Assembly: GCA_900543715.1 (NCBI GenBank) | Contig: UQSX01000009.1 | Span: 1 to 64,000, forward strand | Length of the DNA: 64,000 nucleotides | Source: an uncultured Blautia sp. | GTDB taxonomy: Bacteria > Bacillota > Clostridia > Lachnospirales > Lachnospiraceae | Direction of reading: 5' to 3' | Part shown: positions 3,044 to 64,000 of the stretch, piece by piece | Layout: the number at the start of each line of letters is the position of its first letter | Position numbering within the stretch: position 1 is the first letter of the stretch | Made by a program: the position numbers and the translations under genes | Notes under the pieces: model-generated | Told to the model about the DNA's origin: nothing | Database searches by the model: none | What the model saw: only the letters and a program-made list of their open reading frames with translations

Positions 3044-3391
3044 TTAGAAAGGAAATCCGCCGCCCAGGCCGCCTGTAAGCTTGGACATTACTGCTGCGGA
3101 CTCTTCCTCTACTTTGCGGAGAGCTTCATTTGTCGCTGCCATGATCAAATCTTCCAGCATTTCAATATCATCGGGATCCACCACTTCTTCCGCCAGCTTC
3201 ACCTTGGTCACTTCTTTCTTACCGGAAATAGTAACCTCCACAGCACCGCCTCCGGCAGCCGCAGTGAACTCTTTTTCCTCAAGGGCCTTCTGGTTTTCTT
3301 CCATCTGGCGCTGCATTTTCTGGGCCTGTTTCATTAAATTATTCATGTTTCCCGGCATCATTCCGCCCGGGAATCCTCCTCTTTTTGCCAT
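3044..3391 (-). CDS. YbaB/EbfC family nucleoid-associated protein
   Basis: A 115-residue small DNA-binding protein of the YbaB/EbfC family. A Gly/Met-rich start ([20 protein letters not shown]) precedes the conserved amphipathic helix ([20 protein letters not shown], about 18-37), followed by the [11 protein letters not shown] strand region and a Gly/Phe-rich tail. Members bind DNA as dimers and are linked to recombinational repair through their fixed position between dnaX and recR, which is the case here. Confidence 0.95.
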
Positions 3392-6345: not shown

Positions 6346-6612
6346 CATCGTGCAGCCGGGGAGATAGCGGTGCCCTGTACCTGCAATCCGCTACAGCAGG
6401 GGTGATGCCAAACCGAGGGATTTCTTTCTGTGGGGCTGCCCTCTATAAGTGGCGTTGACGTCTGGGTCTTACGCAACAGGAATCTGTGAACCGTGTCAGG
6501 GCAGGAATGCAGCAGCACTAAGCAGAACCTTCTGTGTGCCGTAAGGGTGCCTGGGCTGAGTTAACTGTAGAGGTAACGTCCATGGGAGAGTCTCGAAGGG
6601 CGGCGCACGATG
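6346..6612 (+). ncRNA. ffs: Signal recognition particle RNA (long, Alu-containing bacterial type)
   Basis: About 267 bases. This RNA scaffolds Ffh to target ribosomes making membrane proteins. The ends pair: CATCGTGC-A-GCCG at the 5' end with CGGCGCACGATG at 6601-6612. The 5' part has the GCCGGGGAGATAGCGGTGCC Alu-domain pattern. The apical helix 8 has the conserved AGGAATGCAGCAGCACTAAG segment near 6503-6522, which is the Ffh site. The length and presence of an Alu domain match the Bacillus/Clostridium form rather than the 4.5S RNA of E. coli. It is flanked by its own promoter and terminator. Confidence 0.95.
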
Positions 6613-31717: not shown

Positions 31718-31790
31718 TGCGCCTTCAGGGACTCGAACCCTGGACAAATAGATTAAGAGTCTACTGCTCTACCAACTGAGCTAAAGGCGC
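31718..31790 (-). tRNA. tRNA-Lys (anticodon CTT)
   Basis: A 73-base cloverleaf. Acceptor GCGCCTT pairs with AAGGCGC, the D arm has AGCTCAGTTGGTAGAGC, the anticodon loop reads CTCTTAA (CTT) on a TAGA/TCTA stem, and the T arm GGGTTCGAGTCCC is intact. The discriminator is A and CCA is not encoded. Confidence 0.95.
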
Positions 31791-53485: not shown

Positions 53486-54418
53486 TTACTGAAGATCTTC
53501 CCAGTTTGTAACCTCTCCCGTATAAATCTGTTTTACCTGATCAGATGTGATATCTGTCATGCTGTTTTCATTGTTTACGATAATTGCGATACCGTCAATA
53601 GCGATTTGAGTTCCTGTAACGCCTTCAGATGTCTCTGTATCTTTCAGTTCTCTGGAAGCCATACCGATATCACAGATACCGCTGATAGTAGATTCTACAC
53701 CAGTTGTAGAGTCGCTTGTCTGGATCTCGATAGAAGCGTTTGGATTTACAGCTTCATATCCTTCTTTCAGTTTTTCCATTACAGGAGATACAGAAGAGGA
53801 TCCTGCAACTACTACGCTGCCTTCCGGTGATGTTCCTGCATAAGCTTCTGCCGCATCATCTACAGGAATATAATCTTCTCCTACAATAGCCTGTCCGTCA
53901 GAGCTGAGGATATAATCAACAAAATCCTGAGCCACATCGCTGAGACTGTCACCTGTTACAATATTGAAAGGACGGGATACTTTGTATGTACCGTTCTTTA
54001 CATTCTCAGCAGATGCTTCAGCTCCATCTACTTTCAGAGCTTTTACGCTGTCATCTAAGGAACCAAGGGAAATATAACCGATAGCCTGAGGATCCTGAGC
54101 AACACCTGTCATCATAACGGCGGTGCTGTTTGTTACCTGGGCGTCTACGGTAGTGTTATCTACTTTTTCCCCATCAGCATTCTCTTCCTCTACACCGAAC
54201 AGCTCTACAAAAGCTCCTCTTGTACCGGAACCTTCCTCACGGGAAAGTACGGAAATTGTTCCGCTTGGTGCGGAAGCATCAGAACCGCTGTCAGAAGATG
54301 CACTGTCTTCTGTTGTTGTACTGTCTGAACTGCTGCTGCCTGAATCGCTTGAACCGCAGGCTGCCATGCTGAATACCATTGCTCCCATTAATACTGCTGC
54401 TAATACTTTCTTCTTCAT
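53486..54418 (-). CDS. pstS: Phosphate-binding lipoprotein PstS, circularly permuted
   Basis: 310 residues. Lipoprotein signal with lipobox SMAAC (Cys 21) and a Ser/Asp-rich linker to about 52. The order of the rest is unusual. The half that is normally C-terminal comes first (SREEGSGTRGAF 59-70, IGYISLGSLDDSVKALKVDG 113-132, then the FVDYILSSDGQAIV end at 166-179). The half that is normally N-terminal comes after it (VVVAGSSSVSPVMEKLKEGY 202-221, DIGMASRELKD 250-260, IVNNENS), ending TGEVTNWEDLQ, where an ordinary PstS continues into SREEGSGTR. Both ligand-loop motifs are intact, so phosphate binding is expected. It leads the operon behind a Pho box. Confidence 0.9.
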   Translation of the reverse strand: MKKKVLAAVLMGAMVFSMAACGSSDSGSSSSDSTTTEDSASSDSGSDASAPSGTISVLSREEGSGTRGAFVELFGVEEENADGEKVDNTTVDAQVTNSTAVMMTGVAQDPQAIGYISLGSLDDSVKALKVDGAEASAENVKNGTYKVSRPFNIVTGDSLSDVAQDFVDYILSSDGQAIVGEDYIPVDDAAEAYAGTSPEGSVVVAGSSSVSPVMEKLKEGYEAVNPNASIEIQTSDSTTGVESTISGICDIGMASRELKDTETSEGVTGTQIAIDGIAIIVNNENSMTDITSDQVKQIYTGEVTNWEDLQ

Positions 54419-54557: not shown

Positions 54558-55514
54558 TCATTTTACATTTGAATTTTCAAATTTAACATTTCCCTTTTTC
54601 CCTTGATTTATGTAATGTTTTCTATACTTTAAAGGAGAAAGTCCGTAGTATTGGCGGAATTTTTTTCCAAAGTAGCTGGGGTGACTGAAGCCGCTGCTGA
54701 TACAGATCTCTGTAATACTGTCATCTGTGTTGCGGAGCTTATAGGCCGCCTGCGAAAGCCGGTAAAAGGTCATATATTCCATGGGCGGCTGACCGGTTAT
54801 CTTCTGAAAACTACGGAAACATTCTGTCCGGCTGATGTTTGCCTGCCGGGCCATATCTTCTATAGTAATATAGTCTCCATAATGGACTTCTATATACTTC
54901 AGTATTTTCTTGACTCTCTGCTCATACTTGGTGTCAGAAGCTTTCTCCGCATAGATTCCTCTGTCCGGTTTCTCCTGACGGGCCAGTATGGCCCAGGCTC
55001 TGCTGAGGGCATTCCGCACCATAAGCTCGCTGTCCCATTTTTCTTCTTTACAGAAAATATAAACTTGTTTCAGACACTCCAGGACTTCTTTCTGCCAGTC
55101 AGTCTCCAATCTTAACACACAGCCCTTAAAATCCGGATCTTCCGCCATGGGTTTAACATATTTCTGATAGAGCAGGCCCCGCTCCTCCCCGGAAATAAAT
55201 TTGGGAGAAAATACAAAAGATACAGACCGTCCCCTGCAGTCACCACTATGGGTTCCGGCCATATGAAGGGCTCCGCAGTTTATAAAGATTCCCTCTCCTT
55301 TTTCCAGCACATACTGCTCTCCGTTGCTTCCGCACCGTATATTGCCTTCCAGCACCAGGAGAAACTCTGCCTCCTTATGCCAGTGCCATCCTTCCCCCTG
55401 AAGGGTTCTGTCCTCATTCATATAGCCCTGAAAAGGAAAATCTCTGGTGCCATGGACCTGGATCTCGAACATTGAATCATTTACAGAAAATTCCTCCGGC
55501 TTTATCAGAAGCAT
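54558..55514 (-). CDS. AraC-family transcriptional regulator with cupin sensor domain
   Basis: 318 residues. N-terminal cupin-like domain (GWHWHKEAEFLLVLEGNIRCG near 42-62; EKGEGIFINCGALHMAG) and two helix-turn-helix motifs at the C-terminus (ITIEDMARQANISRTECFRSF near 215-235; ITEICISSGFSHPSYFGKKFR near 268-288). Likely sugar-sensing. A short Lys/Asn tail follows the usual end. No obvious target except the divergent membrane-protein gene. Confidence 0.92.
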   Translation of the reverse strand: MLLIKPEEFSVNDSMFEIQVHGTRDFPFQGYMNEDRTLQGEGWHWHKEAEFLLVLEGNIRCGSNGEQYVLEKGEGIFINCGALHMAGTHSGDCRGRSVSFVFSPKFISGEERGLLYQKYVKPMAEDPDFKGCVLRLETDWQKEVLECLKQVYIFCKEEKWDSELMVRNALSRAWAILARQEKPDRGIYAEKASDTKYEQRVKKILKYIEVHYGDYITIEDMARQANISRTECFRSFQKITGQPPMEYMTFYRLSQAAYKLRNTDDSITEICISSGFSHPSYFGKKFRQYYGLSPLKYRKHYINQGKKGNVKFENSNVK

Positions 55515-55651
55515 TTTCGTCTCCTCCTTTTGGTACGATTTTAATATTTTTTGAAAGTATTGTAATAGATTTCTTTTTCTTTTTTCTTTACTCTATTCTA
55601 GCATGGATGTAAGCGGATTATAAATATTTTTGTATTTTGAGGGGAATTGTT

Positions 55652-56356
55652 ATGTCAATGGAATTTACATCAGAGAAATTAAGACGTGTGGTGATGACTG
55701 TGGCGGGAGTCACTGCCAGCGGCGTGGCCGTGGGATTTTTCAACTATTCTGCCTTTGGTATGGATCCTTTCCAGGTCCTGGCCCACGGACTTTGGAATCT
55801 GACGCCAATCGGCTACGGAACTTTCTATACCATATTCAGCCTGCTGCTTTTCGTATTTACCCTGGTCATGGACCGTAAAAAGATTGGTCTGGGAACAGTG
55901 ATCAATATGTTCCTTCTGGGATATATTACAGAGTTTTTTTCCTGGCTCTTTGCCACCCTGTTTCCAGGCGGAGGCTTTTTCTTCCGGCTCATTATGCTGC
56001 TGATCGGCATAACCATCATGTGTCTGGCCGCTTCTTTATATTTTACCGCCAATATGGGGGTATCCGTCTATGACGCCATAGCCCTGTGCCTGTCAGAACG
56101 TACCCCCATAAAATTCCAGTACTGCCGCATTGGCAGCGACGTTGTCTGTGTTGTGGTAGGATTTATCTTTGGGGCCCAGGTAGGTCTGGGAACGGTGATC
56201 ACCATGTTTTTCACAGGGCCCCTGATCCATGTTTTCCAGGAGATACTGGCCATTCCTCTTCTCAGGGGACGTAATCCTGTAGCTTACAATATCCGGAAGT
56301 TATATCTCCGTATTAAAAAGGCTCTAAGACAAAAATCTGCAGGCCGGCATATATAA
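55652..56356 (+). CDS. YczE/YyaS-like integral membrane protein
   Basis: 234 residues from ATG 55652 (GAGGGG upstream). Five helices and the family traits: NYSAFGMDPFQVLAHGLWN near 28-46, FTANMGVSVYDAIALCLSE near 130-148 and GAQVGLGTVITMFFTGPLIHVF near 180-201, the latter two repeating a G-xDP/GxG pattern. COG2364-type; function unknown. Divergent from the AraC gene, so possibly controlled by it. Confidence 0.85.
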   Translation: MSMEFTSEKLRRVVMTVAGVTASGVAVGFFNYSAFGMDPFQVLAHGLWNLTPIGYGTFYTIFSLLLFVFTLVMDRKKIGLGTVINMFLLGYITEFFSWLFATLFPGGGFFFRLIMLLIGITIMCLAASLYFTANMGVSVYDAIALCLSERTPIKFQYCRIGSDVVCVVVGFIFGAQVGLGTVITMFFTGPLIHVFQEILAIPLLRGRNPVAYNIRKLYLRIKKALRQKSAGRHI

Positions 56357-56421
56357 AAAGGCCAGTCCTCAGGAAAATCTTTCAAATGTAGAGAAATGAT
56401 CCTCCTGAGGGCTGGCCTTTT
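56356..56421. terminator. Bidirectional terminator
   Basis: A 19-bp stem (arms 56356-56374 and 56403-56421, one G-T pair) with A-run before and T-run after, lying between the YczE-like gene and the convergent ECF operon; it ends both. Confidence 0.88.
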
Positions 56422-56442
56422 CGTTTTACTTATTTATAAATA

Positions 56443-57801
56443 TTACGGCTCCAGAATCCCATATTTTTTCTTAATCCTGTCCAGCTTTCTCATAATGGGA
56501 TTTCCCAGCACCGCAAGAAATACCACTGAGGCCGTTGCATGTATCATATTCATAGGAAAACCGCTGATATAAGCGGCCAGAAAAGCGGTCTCCTGTACAG
56601 CTCCCAGTCCCATAAATACACTGGCCGTATCCATGAGAAATCCATAAATGATCAGTGTAGACAATCCTCCGTAGATACACAGCCACAATGTGAAATGTTT
56701 CCATTTTCCCCGTTTTCTTCGAAAGATCAATCCTGCCAGAAATCCGATGATGCCAAAGGAAAACATCTGCCATGGAGTCCATGGCCCTTGCCCGAAGAAA
56801 AAGTTGGAAGCAAATCCTGCCAGGGCGCCTGTGAGGAATCCTGCTTCTGCCCCCAGACTGACTCCGGTAATAATCACAATAGCCGCTGTAGGTTTAAACT
56901 GAGGCAGCATAAAGAACGCTGTCCTGCCTGCTACTCCAAGTCCTGCCATAACGGCGATTACTACCACCTCCCTGGCCTGAGGCCTCCGATTCTCAAATAC
57001 GAAAAAAAACGGCAGCATGGATAAAATGATCACACACAGGGAAATAAAGTAATCACTTCTGTCATTGAGGAAAAAGATGCCAAAGAGGATCACACCAGGT
57101 ATAGCTGTGAAGATAAGGATAAAGGCCAGGATCGTTCTCTTTCCGATTCCCTGATCTTTTGTCTCTCTTCTGTCCTGATAGAACTCGGCGGCATACTCTT
57201 TCCTGGTATCCAGCAATTTTCGGAGAAAAGGGATCAGAAGGACTGCCAGGAGGATCTGCAGATAGGCTGCTGCCGTAAGCTGCACATGGCTGTAAAGAGT
57301 CAGATTAGCAAAGCTGTTCTCTCTCCCTTCCAATATATTTAAAGCCATGTTCGTATCCGTCACCCAGGCAAAAGCAGCCCCTGTCAAAAAAGCATTCCAC
57401 AGAAAAGCAATCCGGCCAAAACCTGCTGCTCTTACCTTTTTCCAGAATGCCAGAATGATGAAAAGCACCCCCAGAAGAATCCCTGCTGCCATTCCCAGAC
57501 GCAGCAGAGCTGCTGTCTGCTCTGCTGCCCTGGTCATAGTCTCCGGCACCGGATATGCCCAGGCAATGCCGGCAGCCGTCTCTTCCAGTTTCCACAGCAT
57601 GCCGGCTGAAGAATAGGGGGAATACTTCAGGTCCGGCACAGAAACCCAGCGGAAGCACAGCATAGATAAAATTTCCGCTGTCATAGCAATAACCGGCAGC
57701 ATAGCCTGGGTATCCATTCCTTTTGCCATTTCCCGGTCCTGGGCTTCCTTCCTGGCAAACTTTTCTCTGTTGTTGTCTTTTTGTCTTGCTATTTCCGGCA
57801 T
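56443..57801 (-). CDS. ECF transporter S component with long N-terminal membrane extension
   Basis: 452 residues from ATG 57801, which overlaps the ATPase stop by 13 bases and has AAAGGATGTGA upstream. Residues ~35-240 hold four to five helices of no known family (LLRLGMAAGILLGVLFIILAF; YLQILLAVLLIPFLRKLL). Residues ~245-440 look like a complete S component (AVMAGLGVAGRTAFFMLPQF; GVSLGAEAGFLTGALAGFASNFFFGQG; FGIIGFLAGLIFRRKRGKW). Last gene of the operon with EcfT, EcfAA' and two surface proteins. Substrate not shown by sequence alone. Confidence 0.8.
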   Translation of the reverse strand: MPEIARQKDNNREKFARKEAQDREMAKGMDTQAMLPVIAMTAEILSMLCFRWVSVPDLKYSPYSSAGMLWKLEETAAGIAWAYPVPETMTRAAEQTAALLRLGMAAGILLGVLFIILAFWKKVRAAGFGRIAFLWNAFLTGAAFAWVTDTNMALNILEGRENSFANLTLYSHVQLTAAAYLQILLAVLLIPFLRKLLDTRKEYAAEFYQDRRETKDQGIGKRTILAFILIFTAIPGVILFGIFFLNDRSDYFISLCVIILSMLPFFFVFENRRPQAREVVVIAVMAGLGVAGRTAFFMLPQFKPTAAIVIITGVSLGAEAGFLTGALAGFASNFFFGQGPWTPWQMFSFGIIGFLAGLIFRRKRGKWKHFTLWLCIYGGLSTLIIYGFLMDTASVFMGLGAVQETAFLAAYISGFPMNMIHATASVVFLAVLGNPIMRKLDRIKKKYGILEP

Positions 57802-59453
57802 CTTTCGATCACATCCTTTGCTGTCACCACCTCCGGACACCATTTCCTGGCCATCCGGTTTGCGGCTGTAGTATAAAAGCTGTTTCCCATAAAAAATTCC
57901 CTGGCCGGCTTGCTTGTCACTGCACTTCCATAAAAGAACATGGCACAGGTATCCCCAAATTCTGCACAAAATTCTATGTCATGGGAGACCATCAGTATAG
58001 TTCTCCCTTCTGCCGTAAGTTCTTTTAATATCCCGGCCAGTTTCTGTTTATAAAAGCCGTCCATTCCTTTGGTAGGCTCATCCAGAAGGATGATCTCCGG
58101 GTCCAGTAGGAGCACTTTAGCCAGAGCTGCTCTCTGCTGTTCTCCTCCCGACAGATCATAGGGATGGGTATTCAGCAGATGACGGATTTCCGTCTTTTCA
58201 ATAACCTCTTCCATCCGGTTTCGATCTCCATGTCTGCCGGCCATTTCCCGCAGATCCTCTTCCACAGTATCCTTCACAAAGAGGCACTGGGGGTTTTGAG
58301 GCAGGATTCCCAAAAGAGAACCAAACAGTTCCTGCTCTCTGTATTTACTGATATCTTTTCCTTTTAGAAATATCTTCCCCCTGTATGGTTTCCGAAGCCT
58401 GCCAATGAGATTCAGGGTGGTGGTTTTTCCTGTTCCGTTTCCTCCCATAAGGCAGAACAATTCCCCTTTTTTTACCTGCATATTCAAATCCCTTACCACA
58501 TCCGGAAGGTCTTTCTCATACCGGAACCAAACGTCCCGTATTTCAATAACAGGTGTTTCCTTTTCTTTTTTCTCTCTTTTTCCACGCTGCTTTCTCTCCC
58601 CTTCATTTTCCGTCTCCTGTACAGGCTCCGGCCTGGGGAATTTCTGAAGCCATTCTCTGCCTTCCCGGACGGTTACCGGAGATTTTCCCTTGCCGCCCAG
58701 GGCGTCAAAAATACGCATGGGAACCGGCATAGCCTGGAACATATCGTTTCCGTGAAGTTTCTCCCCCAGATACTCCGGAGGCGCCATAGCCAGGATCTTC
58801 CCGTCTTCCATGACCATGACCCTGTCTGCATAAGACAGTACTTCCTCCAGCCTGTGCTCAATGAGTACAATGGAGGTTCCCAGTTCCGCATTGATCTTCC
58901 GCAGTGTAGCCAGGAAATCTCCCGCCGCCAGAGGATCCAGCTGAGATGTGGGCTCGTCCAATACCAGTATATCCGGCTGCATAGCCATCACCGCCGCCAG
59001 ATTTAAAAGCTGTTTCTGTCCTCCGGACAGTTCGTCCACCTTTTTCATAAACCAGGTCTGTATTCCGAAAAAGCTGGCCATCTCTGCTACCCGCAGGCGG
59101 ATAGTACCTGTATCATATCCCAGGTTTTCCAGTCCAAAGGCCAGTTCATGCCATACCTTGTCTGTAACGATCTGATTATCGGGACTCTGGAGCACATATC
59201 CAATACGGGCCCCCTGTTCCCGGACAGAGACTTCGTTGAGAACCCTTCCGTCAAAAAGTATTTTTCCTGTACGGGTGCCAAAAGGTGCCATCGCAGTCTT
59301 AAAATGCCGCAGAAGGGTAGATTTTCCGCAGCCGGATTTCCCGCAGATTACCAGAAACTCCCCTTCTTCCACTGAGAAATTCAGGTCTTCCAGAGCTGGT
59401 TCCTCCTGGCCGGGATATGTAAATGTCAGATTTTTGATCTCAAAGAGCGCCAT
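57789..59453 (-). CDS. ECF transporter ATPase, two ABC domains in one chain (second module)
   Basis: 554 residues from ATG 59453 (GGAGG 7 bases ahead). Domain 1: [15 protein letters not shown] near 37-51, LSGGQKQLLNLAAV, LVLDEPTSQLD. A Glu/Lys linker follows. Domain 2: GGNGTGKTTTLNLIG near 336-350, DLSGGEQQRAALAKV, LLDEPTKGMD. Same architecture as the ATPase at 45114 but clearly diverged. Overlaps EcfT by 28 bases. Confidence 0.94.
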   Translation of the reverse strand: MALFEIKNLTFTYPGQEEPALEDLNFSVEEGEFLVICGKSGCGKSTLLRHFKTAMAPFGTRTGKILFDGRVLNEVSVREQGARIGYVLQSPDNQIVTDKVWHELAFGLENLGYDTGTIRLRVAEMASFFGIQTWFMKKVDELSGGQKQLLNLAAVMAMQPDILVLDEPTSQLDPLAAGDFLATLRKINAELGTSIVLIEHRLEEVLSYADRVMVMEDGKILAMAPPEYLGEKLHGNDMFQAMPVPMRIFDALGGKGKSPVTVREGREWLQKFPRPEPVQETENEGERKQRGKREKKEKETPVIEIRDVWFRYEKDLPDVVRDLNMQVKKGELFCLMGGNGTGKTTTLNLIGRLRKPYRGKIFLKGKDISKYREQELFGSLLGILPQNPQCLFVKDTVEEDLREMAGRHGDRNRMEEVIEKTEIRHLLNTHPYDLSGGEQQRAALAKVLLLDPEIILLDEPTKGMDGFYKQKLAGILKELTAEGRTILMVSHDIEFCAEFGDTCAMFFYGSAVTSKPAREFFMGNSFYTTAANRMARKWCPEVVTAKDVIERCRK

Positions 59454-60313
59454 CGCAAGTCCTCCACAATATTCAAGATTAAGGGCAGGATACACAGAAG
59501 CCCATACAGCCCGTAGGTCAGCACTGCTGCCGGTGTAACCTTATTCATAGTAAACACTGGAAAGTATAGGATGTGGATCTTTTCAGCCCCGATCCCTGCC
59601 AGAAGCAGCCCGAAAACTCCTGCCAAAAACAGCAGAAGGCAGCCGTCTCTTCTGTCAAATCGGTAAATTGAAAAATTTGTCCTTCCCCGAAGTCCATAAG
59701 CTCTTGATTTCATAGAGTCTGCTGTCTCTACGGAATTTTCCAGGGCCCAGGTGGTGGTAATAGAAAGAATCTTCAGTCCATGAAGGGCCCTCTCCCATAT
59801 CCTGCCGTTGTTTACATTCCGTCCTATGCATTGCTGCGCCTGGGCTACTCTTTTGATCTGTCCTGTAAATCTTGGAACAAACCGCAGACACATGGACAAA
59901 AGCAGAGAAAAGGCAGGGATGACCCGTCCGAAAAGATACATGAACTTATCTGAAGTCATAACCTCGTGGAATGCAGAAAACCAGGAAACCACACAGGCCA
60001 GCATGGTACCGGAACCGATCCCATATAAGATGGACTCCAGAGTAATCGGATTTCCGTTATCCAGATAAAAAAGTATGGTGGCTCCCTCATGACTGAACAT
60101 AGGATTAATGACCATCATTACAAGGCAGGCCGGCAGCATTCCAAAAACAAAGACTTTCACCGTCTTTCTGCCTTTTAAATAGATAGAATAGGCCAGCGAA
60201 CCGGCCAGGGACAGCGCCAGCAGGACCGGGTGCATATAAAACATAGAAATCCCTATGACCAGGACAAAATAAACGAAGTTTATCAGAGGGTGATATTCTG
60301 AAAAAGTATCCAT
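59426..60313 (-). CDS. ECF transporter transmembrane subunit EcfT (second module)
   Basis: 295 residues from ATG 60313 (AGGAGA 6 bases ahead). Helices LINFVYFVLVIGISMFYM and LLLSMCLRFVPRFTGQIKRVA; the coupling segment SMKSRAYGLRGRTNFSIY near 223-240 has the Arg-Gly pattern of EcfT. Separated from the DUF4430 gene by a hairpin. Confidence 0.9.
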   Translation of the reverse strand: MDTFSEYHPLINFVYFVLVIGISMFYMHPVLLALSLAGSLAYSIYLKGRKTVKVFVFGMLPACLVMMVINPMFSHEGATILFYLDNGNPITLESILYGIGSGTMLACVVSWFSAFHEVMTSDKFMYLFGRVIPAFSLLLSMCLRFVPRFTGQIKRVAQAQQCIGRNVNNGRIWERALHGLKILSITTTWALENSVETADSMKSRAYGLRGRTNFSIYRFDRRDGCLLLFLAGVFGLLLAGIGAEKIHILYFPVFTMNKVTPAAVLTYGLYGLLCILPLILNIVEDLRWRSLRSKI

Positions 60314-60339
60314 ATTCATTCTCCTAAATAGATAAAGAT

Positions 60340-60367
60340 TTGGGCGCTCCTGTTTCGGAACGCCCAA
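60340..60367 (-). other. Hairpin between the DUF4430 and EcfT genes
   Basis: TTGGGCG and CGCCCAA, with inner TCC/GGA, form a stem of 7-10 bp in the 59-base gap between the two genes. On the minus strand it is followed by ATCTTTATCTATTT, too weak for a full terminator. It could allow partial read-through or protect the upstream mRNA, giving more surface protein than transporter. Confidence 0.5.
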
Positions 60368-60372
60368 GGCTC

Positions 60373-61290
60373 TTACCGCTGCCACTCAGATGCATCCCGG
60401 CCAAGGTCCCGGCCAAGATCACAGGTATAATGCCATTCGATCACATCTCCCTGCTGTACCTGGTAACGGCTGCACCCATAATTGGGATACCACCCATTGA
60501 CACAGTACATCCAGCCGGACCACCGTCCGCAGTCAAACTCATAAAGATTGTTGATCCCTTCTACATACACGCTGTTGTACATGGCTGAAAAACTGGATTC
60601 CATGTGTATCCGGCTGTTCTGCATTTCTCTGAGCAGTACGTCATAGACAGATTCTCCTTCATAGAAAGTTACTGTAGTAGTGTCATAGATCACTCCATCA
60701 GAAGGGACCAGGGATTCTTTTCCCTCTGTGAGATTTTCCATATTATTCAGGATCGTGGAGCACTCTACCAGCAGTGTGCAGGTCAGGGGGCTGTCCGTAT
60801 TGACCTGGGCGTCCTGAGGCTCTACAGGCTGAGGCATCCCTTCTGGTATGGGATCTGTATAATAGTTCTCAGCACTTGCCTCTTCACTGACAGTCGCTCC
60901 GTTTTGGCTTCCGCTTTCTCCCGCCTCAGTACTTTCTTCTGAAACTTCCCCGCTGCTTTGCGCTTCTCCAGATGAAGCAGTCTCCCGGCTGGTATCTGCG
61001 GACGCTTTATATTTACTCAGATCCTCTTCCTGACCCTCTCCGTAATTCTCATCTACATAAGCTTCGTCAATATATTCCTGCTCTGCTTCCTGTTCTTCTT
61101 CAGTATTTCCAGTATCTTCTTCCTGGGAGTCTTCCTCTGTTTCTTTCTCCGGCTCCTCTGAAGAGGATGTCTGTACCTGATCTTCCTCTGAGGCTGCCTG
61201 AGCCGCAGAAGACTGGCAGCCGGAAAATACCATAGTGATCACCAGCAGAAAGCAGAGCAAAAAACTCTTTTTTCTCATACCCTTCCTCAT
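60373..61290 (-). CDS. DUF4430 lipoprotein (transcobalamin-like C-terminal domain)
   Basis: 305 residues. ATG 61290 overlaps the upstream stop (ATGA), with AAAGAGGAG ahead. Lipoprotein signal with lipobox VFSGC (Cys 25). An acidic Glu/Ser spacer follows to about 165, then the DUF4430 domain at about 168-297 with STILNNMENL, YEGESVYDVLLREM, GRWSGWMYCVNGWYPNYGCS and QGDVIEWHYTCDLGRDLG. This domain is the beta fold found at the C-terminus of transcobalamin and intrinsic factor. It has six cysteines (171, 177, 254, 263, 273, 290), enough for three disulfides. It would sit on the outer face of the membrane beside the partner barrel protein. Confidence 0.88.
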   Translation of the reverse strand: MRKGMRKKSFLLCFLLVITMVFSGCQSSAAQAASEEDQVQTSSSEEPEKETEEDSQEEDTGNTEEEQEAEQEYIDEAYVDENYGEGQEEDLSKYKASADTSRETASSGEAQSSGEVSEESTEAGESGSQNGATVSEEASAENYYTDPIPEGMPQPVEPQDAQVNTDSPLTCTLLVECSTILNNMENLTEGKESLVPSDGVIYDTTTVTFYEGESVYDVLLREMQNSRIHMESSFSAMYNSVYVEGINNLYEFDCGRWSGWMYCVNGWYPNYGCSRYQVQQGDVIEWHYTCDLGRDLGRDASEWQR

Positions 61291-64000
61291 CTGTGTCTCC
61301 TCTTTCTTCTATATATAATAAGTCCTGCAATAAGCACTGCTGCGGCTGCTGCTGCCGGCAGTACATAGACAAGAGGTCTGGAAGTATCCTGGACTCCAAG
61401 TACTGATACCTCCTGGCTTTCGTCCCATGTGTCTGCAGCATCGGTGTCCCCGGCTTTTGTCTGAACAGAGGCCTCTGCCACTTCAATATCATTCAGAGAA
61501 CCTGACAGAGCTCTTTCGGCAATAAAGTAGTCTCCGCCTTCTTCCAGAGTAAATTCAATAACGCCTTTTTCTATGGTAAGCTTTTTCACATACCCGGCTT
61601 CTCTTGTCTCGGGGTCATAAGAGAAAAGCAAGGTCGTGCCATCTTCCATTTCTGTATTCAGGGTAACCAGCATCTTCCCGGGGAAAGTCTCCATAGATTC
61701 CATACACAAGATCAGCGGCTCCTGGGCCAGCGTCTCTATATCTTCCTTATGCTCACAGTCTTCTCCTGTACGGATCCGAAACTGAAAATCTTCGGTCCTC
61801 TCCACATCTTCTCCGTTGATCGTAAGAGTATAACTGATCTTATCATTCAGTTTTCCCTCACCCTGGAGATTTCGGCTGGTACCTTTGATCTCCTCTAACT
61901 CTTCCTTGCTCATGATGCCTTCTGTCTCTACTTTAAGAATATTCTGACTGGAGCTGGCTGCAGAAGATGTGGAAACTTTTCTTGCGCTTCCTGTGGAAGC
62001 GCTCCTGCTGGTACTGATACTGTAGCCTGAACCGGTGCCGGCAAGGCTTTTCTCCGTATCACTGTTTCCAAGGATCGTAAGTTCCCCCTGAGCGTTGGAC
62101 GTCAGTCCTTCCGGTGTTCCGGAATTATCGTTTCCATTTAGTCCCAGAATTTCCTTCGCCAGCCAGTAACGGCCTCCTATGGAAACCGTCATCTTCAGCT
62201 TCCCTGAGGCAACCTGGGCTGTTCCTGCACTCTGGATAGTCAGTTTGTCCGGGTTGAGCCAGTATAAGTCGTAGGTTCCATCTGCTGCGCTGCAGGTCGT
62301 CTCCAGTGTCACCGGACCGTTCATGCTGCCGTTCTGTAAAAATTCCACCTGAAGGGCCGCTCCTTCCACACTGACGTCTCCCTGAGAAATCTTTACGCCT
62401 GCCTGAATATCTGCTGCCGCCTGGATCTCAGCGCCCTGATAGGTCAGAGTATAGTCTGTTCCGTCAGCCAGTTTTCCCCGGTACACAAAACTTTCCTGAG
62501 TTCTCCGGATATTCTGAAATACCGCTTCAGGGATAACTCCGTCATCCAGGCTCTGGACGATTTCTGCTGCGTTCAGAAGACTCTGGATATTTACCAGCAG
62601 CTCCTGCTCTTCTGTTTCCAGCTGGCTGTATCTGGTCATCAATGCATTTACCGTATCGGCGCTGTCCTGGTTTATCCTGAGGGGATCTATCTGATCCCAG
62701 ATATCCTGATCCAGGGCATCTGCCACAGCCTCCCGCTCTTCTATCTGCTTCAGATATCCTTCCAGCGCAGCCTTCAGTTCTGCTTTCTGGGGCCACTCTC
62801 CCAGGGCCTCCAATTCAGTGAGATATTGATGTATCATAAGTTTGTCAGAAATTTTCACCGGCGTCTCAATTCCCTGGATTTTTTCCTGGAATTCCTGCCG
62901 TTCCTGATCCCTGGCTTCCTCATCTTCCGCTTCCAGTTCCTGAAGCCGGGCCTGAAGTTCCACAAGTTTTCCATAATTAGTCACCTGGACCTTCTCTTCC
63001 TCTGTCAGAGAATCATAGGCTGCCTGTGCTGCCTGGACAGCTGCCTGGTGTGTCAGAGTCAGTTCAGCTACAGAAGGAAGCCGGTCAATCTGGCTTATCA
63101 CAGCCTGCACTGCAGCGGCGCCGTCAGCCTGAATGGTCAGCGTCCAGTTTTCCTGGCTGCCGTTCTGCCGGTACACGGTAATATTCAATACCGTACCACT
63201 CTCCACAGGAATAGTCCCTTCCACAGGAGTGCTTCCATCGGCTTTTCTTCCGGTGGTACGGTAGGTATCCTCTCCAACTGTTATTTCTGCTGCGTCATAG
63301 TTTCCTATAGGAAGGTTCTGTATCTGGATTTCCTGTACATTGCTGCCTATCTCCAGCACCGCCTCACTGCCGGCGGCGCAGGTATAGGTCATGGCGCCGG
63401 CCTGGACTGCATAGGCTGAAGTATCTGCCTGGGCTTTAAAATCCCAGACACTGCTCCCCTGCTGCCAGCACCGGTAGGCTGCAATGGCATAAAGAGCCTG
63501 ATCTGTTGCCATACCGTTTGACTCTGTATCTTCTGCCAGATGTTTAAATCCTCCCGTGCTGGTGTTATAATACTTTGCCAGACCATCCAGCAGTGACTTT
63601 CCCGATGAAGAAGTCACGGAAGCCGGGTCGATTCCCATGGCCGCAAAGGCTGCAATAGCCTGGGCTGTAGATTCACAGTTATAATCTCCGCTGCTCTGAA
63701 GATCTCCATCCTGGGAAATCCCTGCTCTCAGCACAGAAAGGCCGCTGTCCACTGCTGTACGGATCTCCTGGTCTCCCGCATAATAAGGGGCAAGAGCATA
63801 AACGGTCATCCCGGTTATATCTGCATCTGCTGGGTCCTGACCGCCGTAAAGACTCCAGCCTCCTCCCGGAGCCTGATTGTCCAGAATATAACGGATCAGG
63901 CTTTCTCTGCCATAGGCGCTGCCTTCCGTAACTTCATATCCTAGGCTGTCCAAAGTCAGAAGCCCCCAGACGGCGCCGTTGATCCCCTGCTGCCAGGGCT
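61287..64000 (-). CDS. Surface protein with terpenoid-cyclase-like (alpha6/alpha6) domain, 5' end outside window
   Basis: 903 residues visible; the frame stays open to the window edge (a TTG at 63953 is not a start, since NGAVWGLLTLDS reads through it). Domains in order: alpha6/alpha6 barrel repeats of the prenyltransferase/squalene-oxidase type (PGGGWSLYGG, DADITGMTVYALAPYY, NCESTAQAIAAFAAMGIDP, MATDQALYAIAAYRCW). Then a beta domain (about 63385-63130), a long helical part with the Firmicutes linker repeat (VAELTLTHQAAVQAAQAAYD; SLTEEEKVQVTNYGKL), further beta domains, a Ser-rich stretch, a C-terminal helix (LVYVLPAAAAAAVLIAGLII) and RRKRRHR as membrane anchor. The barrel is the fold of the transcobalamin alpha domain. 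Signal peptide not visible. Confidence 0.87.
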   Translation of the reverse strand, partial: PWQQGINGAVWGLLTLDSLGYEVTEGSAYGRESLIRYILDNQAPGGGWSLYGGQDPADADITGMTVYALAPYYAGDQEIRTAVDSGLSVLRAGISQDGDLQSSGDYNCESTAQAIAAFAAMGIDPASVTSSSGKSLLDGLAKYYNTSTGGFKHLAEDTESNGMATDQALYAIAAYRCWQQGSSVWDFKAQADTSAYAVQAGAMTYTCAAGSEAVLEIGSNVQEIQIQNLPIGNYDAAEITVGEDTYRTTGRKADGSTPVEGTIPVESGTVLNITVYRQNGSQENWTLTIQADGAAAVQAVISQIDRLPSVAELTLTHQAAVQAAQAAYDSLTEEEKVQVTNYGKLVELQARLQELEAEDEEARDQERQEFQEKIQGIETPVKISDKLMIHQYLTELEALGEWPQKAELKAALEGYLKQIEEREAVADALDQDIWDQIDPLRINQDSADTVNALMTRYSQLETEEQELLVNIQSLLNAAEIVQSLDDGVIPEAVFQNIRRTQESFVYRGKLADGTDYTLTYQGAEIQAAADIQAGVKISQGDVSVEGAALQVEFLQNGSMNGPVTLETTCSAADGTYDLYWLNPDKLTIQSAGTAQVASGKLKMTVSIGGRYWLAKEILGLNGNDNSGTPEGLTSNAQGELTILGNSDTEKSLAGTGSGYSISTSRSASTGSARKVSTSSAASSSQNILKVETEGIMSKEELEEIKGTSRNLQGEGKLNDKISYTLTINGEDVERTEDFQFRIRTGEDCEHKEDIETLAQEPLILCMESMETFPGKMLVTLNTEMEDGTTLLFSYDPETREAGYVKKLTIEKGVIEFTLEEGGDYFIAERALSGSLNDIEVAEASVQTKAGDTDAADTWDESQEVSVLGVQDTSRPLVYVLPAAAAAAVLIAGLIIYRRKRRHR

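Follow-up and report, generated by a model that had tools for sequence, protein, structure and literature searches.

A candidate corrinoid-scavenging operon pairing split transcobalamin-like surface proteins with a CbrT-type importer in an uncultured Blautia

How gut bacteria that depend on vitamin B12 obtain their corrinoids is a stated open problem (Rodionov et al.). A 64,000-nucleotide stretch of DNA from an uncultured Blautia sp. (GenBank assembly GCA_900543715.1, contig UQSX01000009.1, positions 1 to 64,000; hereafter the window) raises the question in concrete form: on its minus strand, genes for two surface proteins recalling the halves of animal transcobalamin stand beside genes for an energy-coupling factor (ECF) importer. 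Does this operon capture a corrinoid outside the membrane and bring it into the cell? A reading made from the letters of this DNA alone (the sequence-only reading) had proposed that it does so for a corrinoid or some other ligand of about that size, with the two surface proteins closing around it.

We find that the operon is probably a scavenging system for corrinoids (vitamin B12, cobamides or cobinamide) of low-GC Gram-positive bacteria. Good support for corrinoid import by a dedicated ECF transporter comes from the match of the S component to the B12 transporter CbrT and to no other PDB entry, from cobalamin riboswitches at related operons and from a structural model of a single-chain relative of the surface pair. 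Judged from sequence, import of a corrinoid is very likely what the operon carries out. That the barrel and DUF4430 proteins close on one corrinoid as a two-halves clamp is a more tentative idea, standing a little short of an even chance.

The operon, its importer and its regulation

A single run of genes occupies the minus strand from position 56443 up to 64000, where the window ends, and the operon extends further. All five genes claimed by the sequence-only reading are present in the order it gave: a surface protein that is anchored in the membrane and contains an (alpha/alpha) barrel (61287..63998, truncated at its 5′ end by the limit of the window), a DUF4430 lipoprotein of the transcobalamin beta-domain family (60373..61290), the transmembrane component EcfT (59426..60313), a double ECF ATPase with EcfA and EcfA′ in a single chain (57789..59453) and an N-terminally extended S component of the CbrT kind (56443..57801). 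The overlaps and close spacing that it described were likewise found: the stop codon of the barrel gene and the start codon of the DUF4430 gene overlap as ATGA, the EcfT and ATPase genes overlap by 28 base pairs (bp) and the ATPase and S-component genes by 13 bp, while the gap between the DUF4430 and EcfT genes measures 59 bp. In that gap, on the same strand, lies an 11-pair hairpin (60340..60367), identified by pattern match only and of a kind found at 8 sites against 6.6 in shuffled sequences. It is a possible attenuator or processing site, and could keep expression of the importer below that of the surface proteins. EcfT, two ATPase domains and an S component are encoded together, as befits a dedicated ECF module.

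The S component (452 amino acids) begins with an ATG at the same position as the start in its relative at locus L090, and its last ~175 residues match PF07155/PF12822, which are broad ECF S-component families in Pfam. Searched against all PDB sequences, a profile built from an alignment of 35 S components (A1) gave one match at E ≤ 0.1, CbrT (6fnp_A, E 2.1e-16), placing the protein nearer in sequence to CbrT than to other S components. Entry 6FNP is ECF-CbrT, for which transport of cobalamin and cobinamide has been demonstrated (PMC5997447). Clear membership of a family serving another substrate, which would have told against the sequence-only reading, was not seen, the closest solved relative being a B12 transporter. 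The EcfT of the window had no meaningful match in Pfam and was identified through an 18-member profile (A7). In the PDB this profile found three EcfT chains (5d3m_D and two others; E 8.6e-17 to 3.6e-13), and the EcfT listed under 6fnp is one of its matches. The ATPase carries two PF00005 stretches (Pfam) and scores 338 bits against TIGR04520 (cut-off 315).

To place the operon among its relatives, one genome per species was scanned with A1, and we kept the best 80 of 569 confirmed loci. By their labels, the hosts are mostly of Clostridia type, with Paenibacillus, Bacillus and Enterococcus also represented; four loci (L017, L049, L055, L057) come from metagenome bins labelled archaeon or actinobacteria. 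EcfT is present in 76 of the 80 loci, a DUF4430 gene adjoins it in 65, and 51 have in addition an upstream gene matching the barrel profile. Because the loci had been fetched by the S component alone, this grouping is not due to chance. The 15 loci without DUF4430 beside EcfT include cut-short or rearranged ones (L023, L064), together with four stretches of ~20 kilobases (kb) each (L021, L046, L059, L073). The profile count scored L001, L002 and L006 as lacking the barrel, though BLAST found it in all three. The ATPase and S component form a single open frame in 33 of the 80 loci (L012, L013, L014 and 30 others), a fusion that is unusual for ECF transporters. The hydrophobic N-terminal extension of the S component (~190–250 amino acids) is conserved in A1 and unmatched in most of the 80 loci: with the window protein as tblastn query, the match begins at residue 106 or later in 72 and before residue 40 in 8. 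The nearest relative with the complete five-gene set, L090, has an extra surface gene (at least 774 amino acids) upstream before its contig ends. A second S-component-like gene stands directly upstream of the DUF4430 gene in two loci (L015:5049-5960 and L038:4941-5897), and in L018 a second EcfT and ATPase follow the S component.

An Rfam scan was made of 41 relatives' loci, of which 32 could be tested at the 5′ end of the operon; the other nine were set aside (L002, L008, L024, L029, L047, L062, L080, L090, L095), as the first barrel or DUF4430 gene reaches the end of the stretch or lies within ~110 bases of it. In 25 of the 32, the operon is preceded by a cobalamin riboswitch on its coding strand (RF00174 in all except L018, whose element belongs to the adenosylcobalamin family RF01482), a count that includes L093 and L094 and leaves out L072. 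Mostly the riboswitch lies 16–540 bases from the annotated start, with distances of ~1.2 kb in L019 and L044; in L006 it ends 115 bases short of the barrel gene, whose start is at 3355, and in L007 and L034 it overlaps an annotated start that was probably called over-long. Relatives with a long S component are among those bearing the element (L005, L006, L007, L009, L093, L094), and two operons are preceded by a tandem pair (L020:2421-2880, L036:661-1224). In L072 a riboswitch stands ahead of a different gene of the barrel/DUF4430 or DUF4430 kind, and so does the second element in L005. Further copies sit elsewhere than at the operon, their neighbours being named by eye: a methyltransferase-like region follows in L078, another DUF4430-like protein in L029 and a small GTP-binding protein in L015. 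An upstream element for a different vitamin, named in advance as a possible refutation, was not seen; those at the relatives' operons are cobalamin ones.

The surface pair and its single-chain relatives

The window holds 903 residues of the barrel protein; judging from the length of a 97% identical relative (P0121, 1181 amino acids), ~278 N-terminal residues fall beyond its end. Pfam gives nothing significant for the in-window part, and the barrel was recognised through relatives, the barrel profile matching P0121 at residues 189-460 with 201 bits. By eye, the C-terminus shows a hydrophobic transmembrane helix and a basic tail as anchor, and the DUF4430 protein a lipobox, VFSGC. Animal B12 carriers contain DUF4430 (PMC4350170), and this beta-type domain is clearly present in the lipoprotein (PF14478, E 1.6e-15). 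For the alpha half, a model of the minimal split barrel of a relative (L028; predicted local distance difference test, pLDDT, 94.8) has the (alpha/alpha) barrel fold. The sequence-only description of transcobalamin-like halves is thus borne out for the DUF4430 domain and, in a relative, for the barrel fold; it is not borne out by the family model PF01122 (Eukaryotic cobalamin-binding protein), which the barrel of the window does not match. The window also divides between two genes what transcobalamin and intrinsic factor hold in a single chain.

Single chains of the animal kind do occur close by. In L028, L030, L056, L060, L065 and others, a further upstream gene encodes one protein with both barrel and DUF4430 domains. 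Residues 240-690 of the L060 protein were modelled with AlphaFold2 (AF2) from an alignment of L060 and 66 relatives (A6, 67 rows), giving pLDDT 91.8 and a predicted TM-score (pTM) of 0.71. In the PDB the first 12 places for this model go to transcobalamin, haptocorrin and intrinsic factor, with E values from 2e-11 to 6e-9, followed in 13th place by the beta domain of human transcobalamin on its own (9.7e-4); all others score 1.5e-3 or worse. Among 120 listed relatives of L060, studied as proteins without genomic context, 21 are listed with PF01122, and 13 of these with PF14478 as well. Six of the 21 were rescanned; all scored above the PF01122 cut-off of 25 bits (27.0 to 43.2) and five carried PF14478, the best PF01122 scorer (P0329) being the one without it.

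Profile comparison ties the split pair to these single chains. The split DUF4430 proteins (A5) align with A6 at 99.3% (E 7.5e-21) and the split barrels (A3) at probability 100, a score that includes S-layer homology (SLH) domains common to both. Against the PDB, the whole-protein DUF4430 profile matched no animal carrier, its matches falling mostly in the linker part, and neither did the domain-only profile (best E 0.14); the link to the animal proteins was made through the modelled structure of the single-chain relative. Among the matches to the L060 model is PDB 3u7z, Ruminococcus gnavus RUMGNA_00854, titled putative metal binding (~111 columns matched), which may be a short DUF4430 protein. 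At six loci (L010, L016, L027, L050, L054, L074) the place of the single barrel protein is taken by very large surface proteins, reaching ~2,200 residues, in which barrel and DUF4430 domains are repeated in series.

In the mechanism that we infer, the exported barrel and DUF4430 proteins would capture a corrinoid outside the membrane, the barrel serving as alpha half and the DUF4430 protein as beta half of a transcobalamin-like clamp. The split pair would bind the corrinoid, close on it and hand it over to the S component, which EcfT and the double ATPase would drive to release it inside. Going by the relatives, expression of the window copy would be repressed by a cobalamin riboswitch sited beyond base 64000, possibly upstream of a further surface gene. 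A more elaborate version, which we consider rather improbable, is a two-stage relay: single-chain transcobalamin homologues anchored in the wall or S-layer would catch the corrinoid at a distance from the membrane, the split transcobalamin at the membrane would receive it and CbrT would import it, the single-chain proteins being related to the donor of the animal B12 carriers. In such a relay the split halves would release their ligand by parting, whereas animals solve release by degrading the carrier.

Weighing the alternatives

Several results weigh against corrinoid capture by a riboswitch-controlled, transcobalamin-like pair, and they concern regulation, the surface proteins and the hosts. 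Seven of the 32 testable loci have no riboswitch at the operon (L015, L061, L072, L076, L078, L091, L092). Two of these belong to genome G147, whose S component is long and 71% identical: the barrel–DUF4430 pair and the EcfT–ATPase–S genes lie on separate contigs (L091, L092), and neither stretch contains a cobalamin riboswitch at gathering level. The search for such an element upstream, suggested by the sequence-only reading, succeeded in the relatives; in the window itself none was seen, the 5′ end of its operon lying beyond base 64000. In L001, L002 and L090, the nearest relatives, the operon runs off the contig, and the sequence of L090 has no riboswitch up to that point.

At E ≤ 1 the in-window barrel does not match PF01122, nor does P0121 at E ≤ 0.01; for the 33 split barrels of A3 this family was not among the 25 families listed out of 37. 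Terpene cyclases head the Foldseek list for the L028 model, with rat transcobalamin appearing from rank 23 (E 6.4e-4, TMq 0.53). The alpha/alpha barrel fold is common to many other families, and this match alone would not single out B12 carriers; as modelled, the split barrel appears to have the right fold, yet to be closer to terpene cyclases than to transcobalamin. Likewise, the split-barrel profile matched no animal carrier in the PDB at E ≤ 0.01, finding S-layer proteins, squalene-hopene cyclase and other terpene cyclases instead. VIA-align gave no transcobalamin among the 50 matches listed (terpene cyclases, sugar epimerases and others), an absence that proves nothing. The TNYYQ motif of the alpha domain is reported to contact the corrin ring in animals (PMC4350170); a like motif occurs as TN.Y in 26 of 67 A6 rows and the split barrels have QG.N. 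Even the single-chain protein of L060 has no PF01122 match of its own at E ≤ 0.01, and its model superposes on the closed animal protein with a root-mean-square deviation (rmsd) of 22–25 Å over both domains, the domains being placed differently. PF01122 was found in none of 200 genomes from the nearest relative's family, a count made uninformative by the control genomes, which gave none either.

In an alternative that is doubtful but to be taken seriously, a corrinoid is imported and no joint clamp forms: the DUF4430 lipoprotein would deliver to the S component alone, and the barrel would be an independent capture or anchoring protein. Besides the missing PF01122 and the terpene cyclase matches, the alternative draws on the single-chain proteins that some operons (L060, L030, L028) encode in addition to the split pair, since the complete clamp may then be elsewhere. 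It fits less well with the ATGA overlap of the two genes in the window and with the barrel-profile gene that directly precedes DUF4430 in 51 of the 80 loci, both of which would be expected for a stoichiometric pair.

Turning to the hosts, we took an even sample of 200 genomes from the family to which G001 belongs; this genome carries L001, a near relative. The S component was detected at E ≤ 1e-10 in 55 of them and CbiC in 119, both together in 16. Of the genomes with the S component, 16 of 55 have CbiC; of those without it, 103 of 145 do (odds ratio 0.17, Fisher p 1.2e-7, uncorrected for kinship and completeness). This anticorrelation fits use by cells unable to make corrin rings. PF14478 was found in 105 genomes. 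All 55 with the S component are among them, and in at least 50 of these the S component and a PF14478 match lie no more than 10 kb apart; the rest are 50 of the 145 genomes without the S component, where the frames are often short (135–190 amino acids); DUF4430 alone is therefore no mark of B12. The five genomes with the highest A1 scores are G001, G147, G173, G125 and G101, of which the first three have CbiC and the last two lack it. The co-occurrence with loss of B12 synthesis, which the sequence-only reading suggested surveying, therefore shows as a family-wide trend and does not extend demonstrably to genomes of the window's kind; the host may well be a corrinoid producer that also salvages.

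Among the five genomes whose S components most resemble that of the window, three have CbiC, which also favours a different cargo, namely a corrinoid precursor or a non-B12 cobamide (cobinamide, pseudo-B12), imported for salvage or remodelling by cells that make corrin rings. ECF-CbrT takes cobinamide besides cobalamin (PMC5997447), which suits this alternative. We think it rather unlikely: across the family the S component mostly occurs without CbiC (39 of 55), and corrinoid specificity cannot be read from sequence.

An S component for riboflavin or folate, with surface proteins serving that vitamin, is very improbable. It is suggested by the PF07155 (ECF-ribofla_trS) match (E 4.8e-11) and by weak NCBIfam matches to the riboflavin S model (28 bits) and the FolT family (27 bits), scores far below the respective cut-offs of 99 and 60. 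Structures of RibU and FolT exist in the PDB, yet the S profile matched nothing there but CbrT at E ≤ 0.1. The Rfam results for the 41 loci list cobalamin riboswitches and no riboswitch for flavin mononucleotide (FMN) or tetrahydrofolate (THF). That the module moves the cobalt ion is least credible of all, for although the ATPase exceeds the cut-off of the cobalt-transporter model TIGR01166 (252 against 211.8 bits) and CbiO/CbiQ neighbours were noted by Burroughs et al. (PMC1796856), no CbiM or CbiN family is listed by Pfam for the five proteins, the S component matches CbrT, and large clamp-like surface proteins would have no obvious place in metal import.

Outside the operon, directly 3′ of the S-component gene, a strong inverted repeat with T-runs can be seen by eye (~56370-56430); it is perhaps a terminator common to the operon and the opposing gene. 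That gene, convergent with the operon, encodes a YczE-like membrane protein (55637-56356, plus strand; NF052291 98 bits, below the cut-off of 205), and beyond it, as seen from the operon, lie an AraC-type regulator (54558-55514) and a protein of phosphate-binding type (53486-54418, by eye). The window also contains a large signal recognition particle RNA (6348-6610, plus strand) and a tRNA (31718-31790, minus strand).

Known systems and what is added

The central idea, B12 scavenging by such operons, is already in print. Burroughs, Balaji, Iyer and Aravind described in 2007 a transcobalamin clade of SLBB domains in low-GC Gram-positive bacteria, fused to alpha/alpha toroids and found in operons with CbiO- and CbiQ-like genes, in hosts usually without key enzymes of B12 synthesis; they proposed B12 scavenging, and transfer to animals (PMC1796856). 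The window shares with those operons a secreted transcobalamin-like beta-grasp domain, a toroid and CbiO/CbiQ-like genes together in a Gram-positive host. Their description covers stand-alone and fused SLBB domains and, as far as it goes, names no S component, whereas here barrel and DUF4430 are separate adjacent proteins; unlike in that description, the S component is tied to CbrT and the relatives have cobalamin riboswitches. No experimental study of such operons was found in the open-access literature searched.

What we add to the 2007 description is the tie of the S component to CbrT, the riboswitches, the PF01122 matches, the structural model and the finding of single-chain and split receptors in one operon, the fresh part being the splitting and the possible relay. 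A published prediction is now backed by several independent lines and connected with cobalamin riboswitches and a B12 importer of known structure, and whether transcobalamin is split or relayed has become a directly testable question. The operon is a named candidate for corrinoid capture outside the membrane, in a family where 55 of 200 genomes carry its S component.

Among known systems, the BtuG-type capture of Bacteroides offers a functional parallel, as there too surface lipoproteins take B12 for an importer; but it is Gram-negative, TonB-dependent and built on unrelated folds. Annotation resources presumably name an additional lipoprotein component for CbrTUV, the predicted cobalamin ECF transporter. 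CbrUVT is named as a B12 transporter by Rodionov et al. in 2019. Animal transcobalamin, haptocorrin and intrinsic factor combine an alpha/alpha barrel with a DUF4430-type beta domain, as does the window pair; they do so in one soluble chain, whereas the window has two anchored proteins, the barrel lacking PF01122. ECF-CbrT of Lactobacillus delbrueckii has an S component of the same sequence family as that of the window (profile E 2.1e-16), but its CbrT chain measures 182 amino acids and relies on an ECF module common to other S components, where the window has 452 amino acids and a dedicated module. The description of ECF-CbrT, as far as it goes, mentions no surface capture proteins (PMC5997447); the operon of the window has two.

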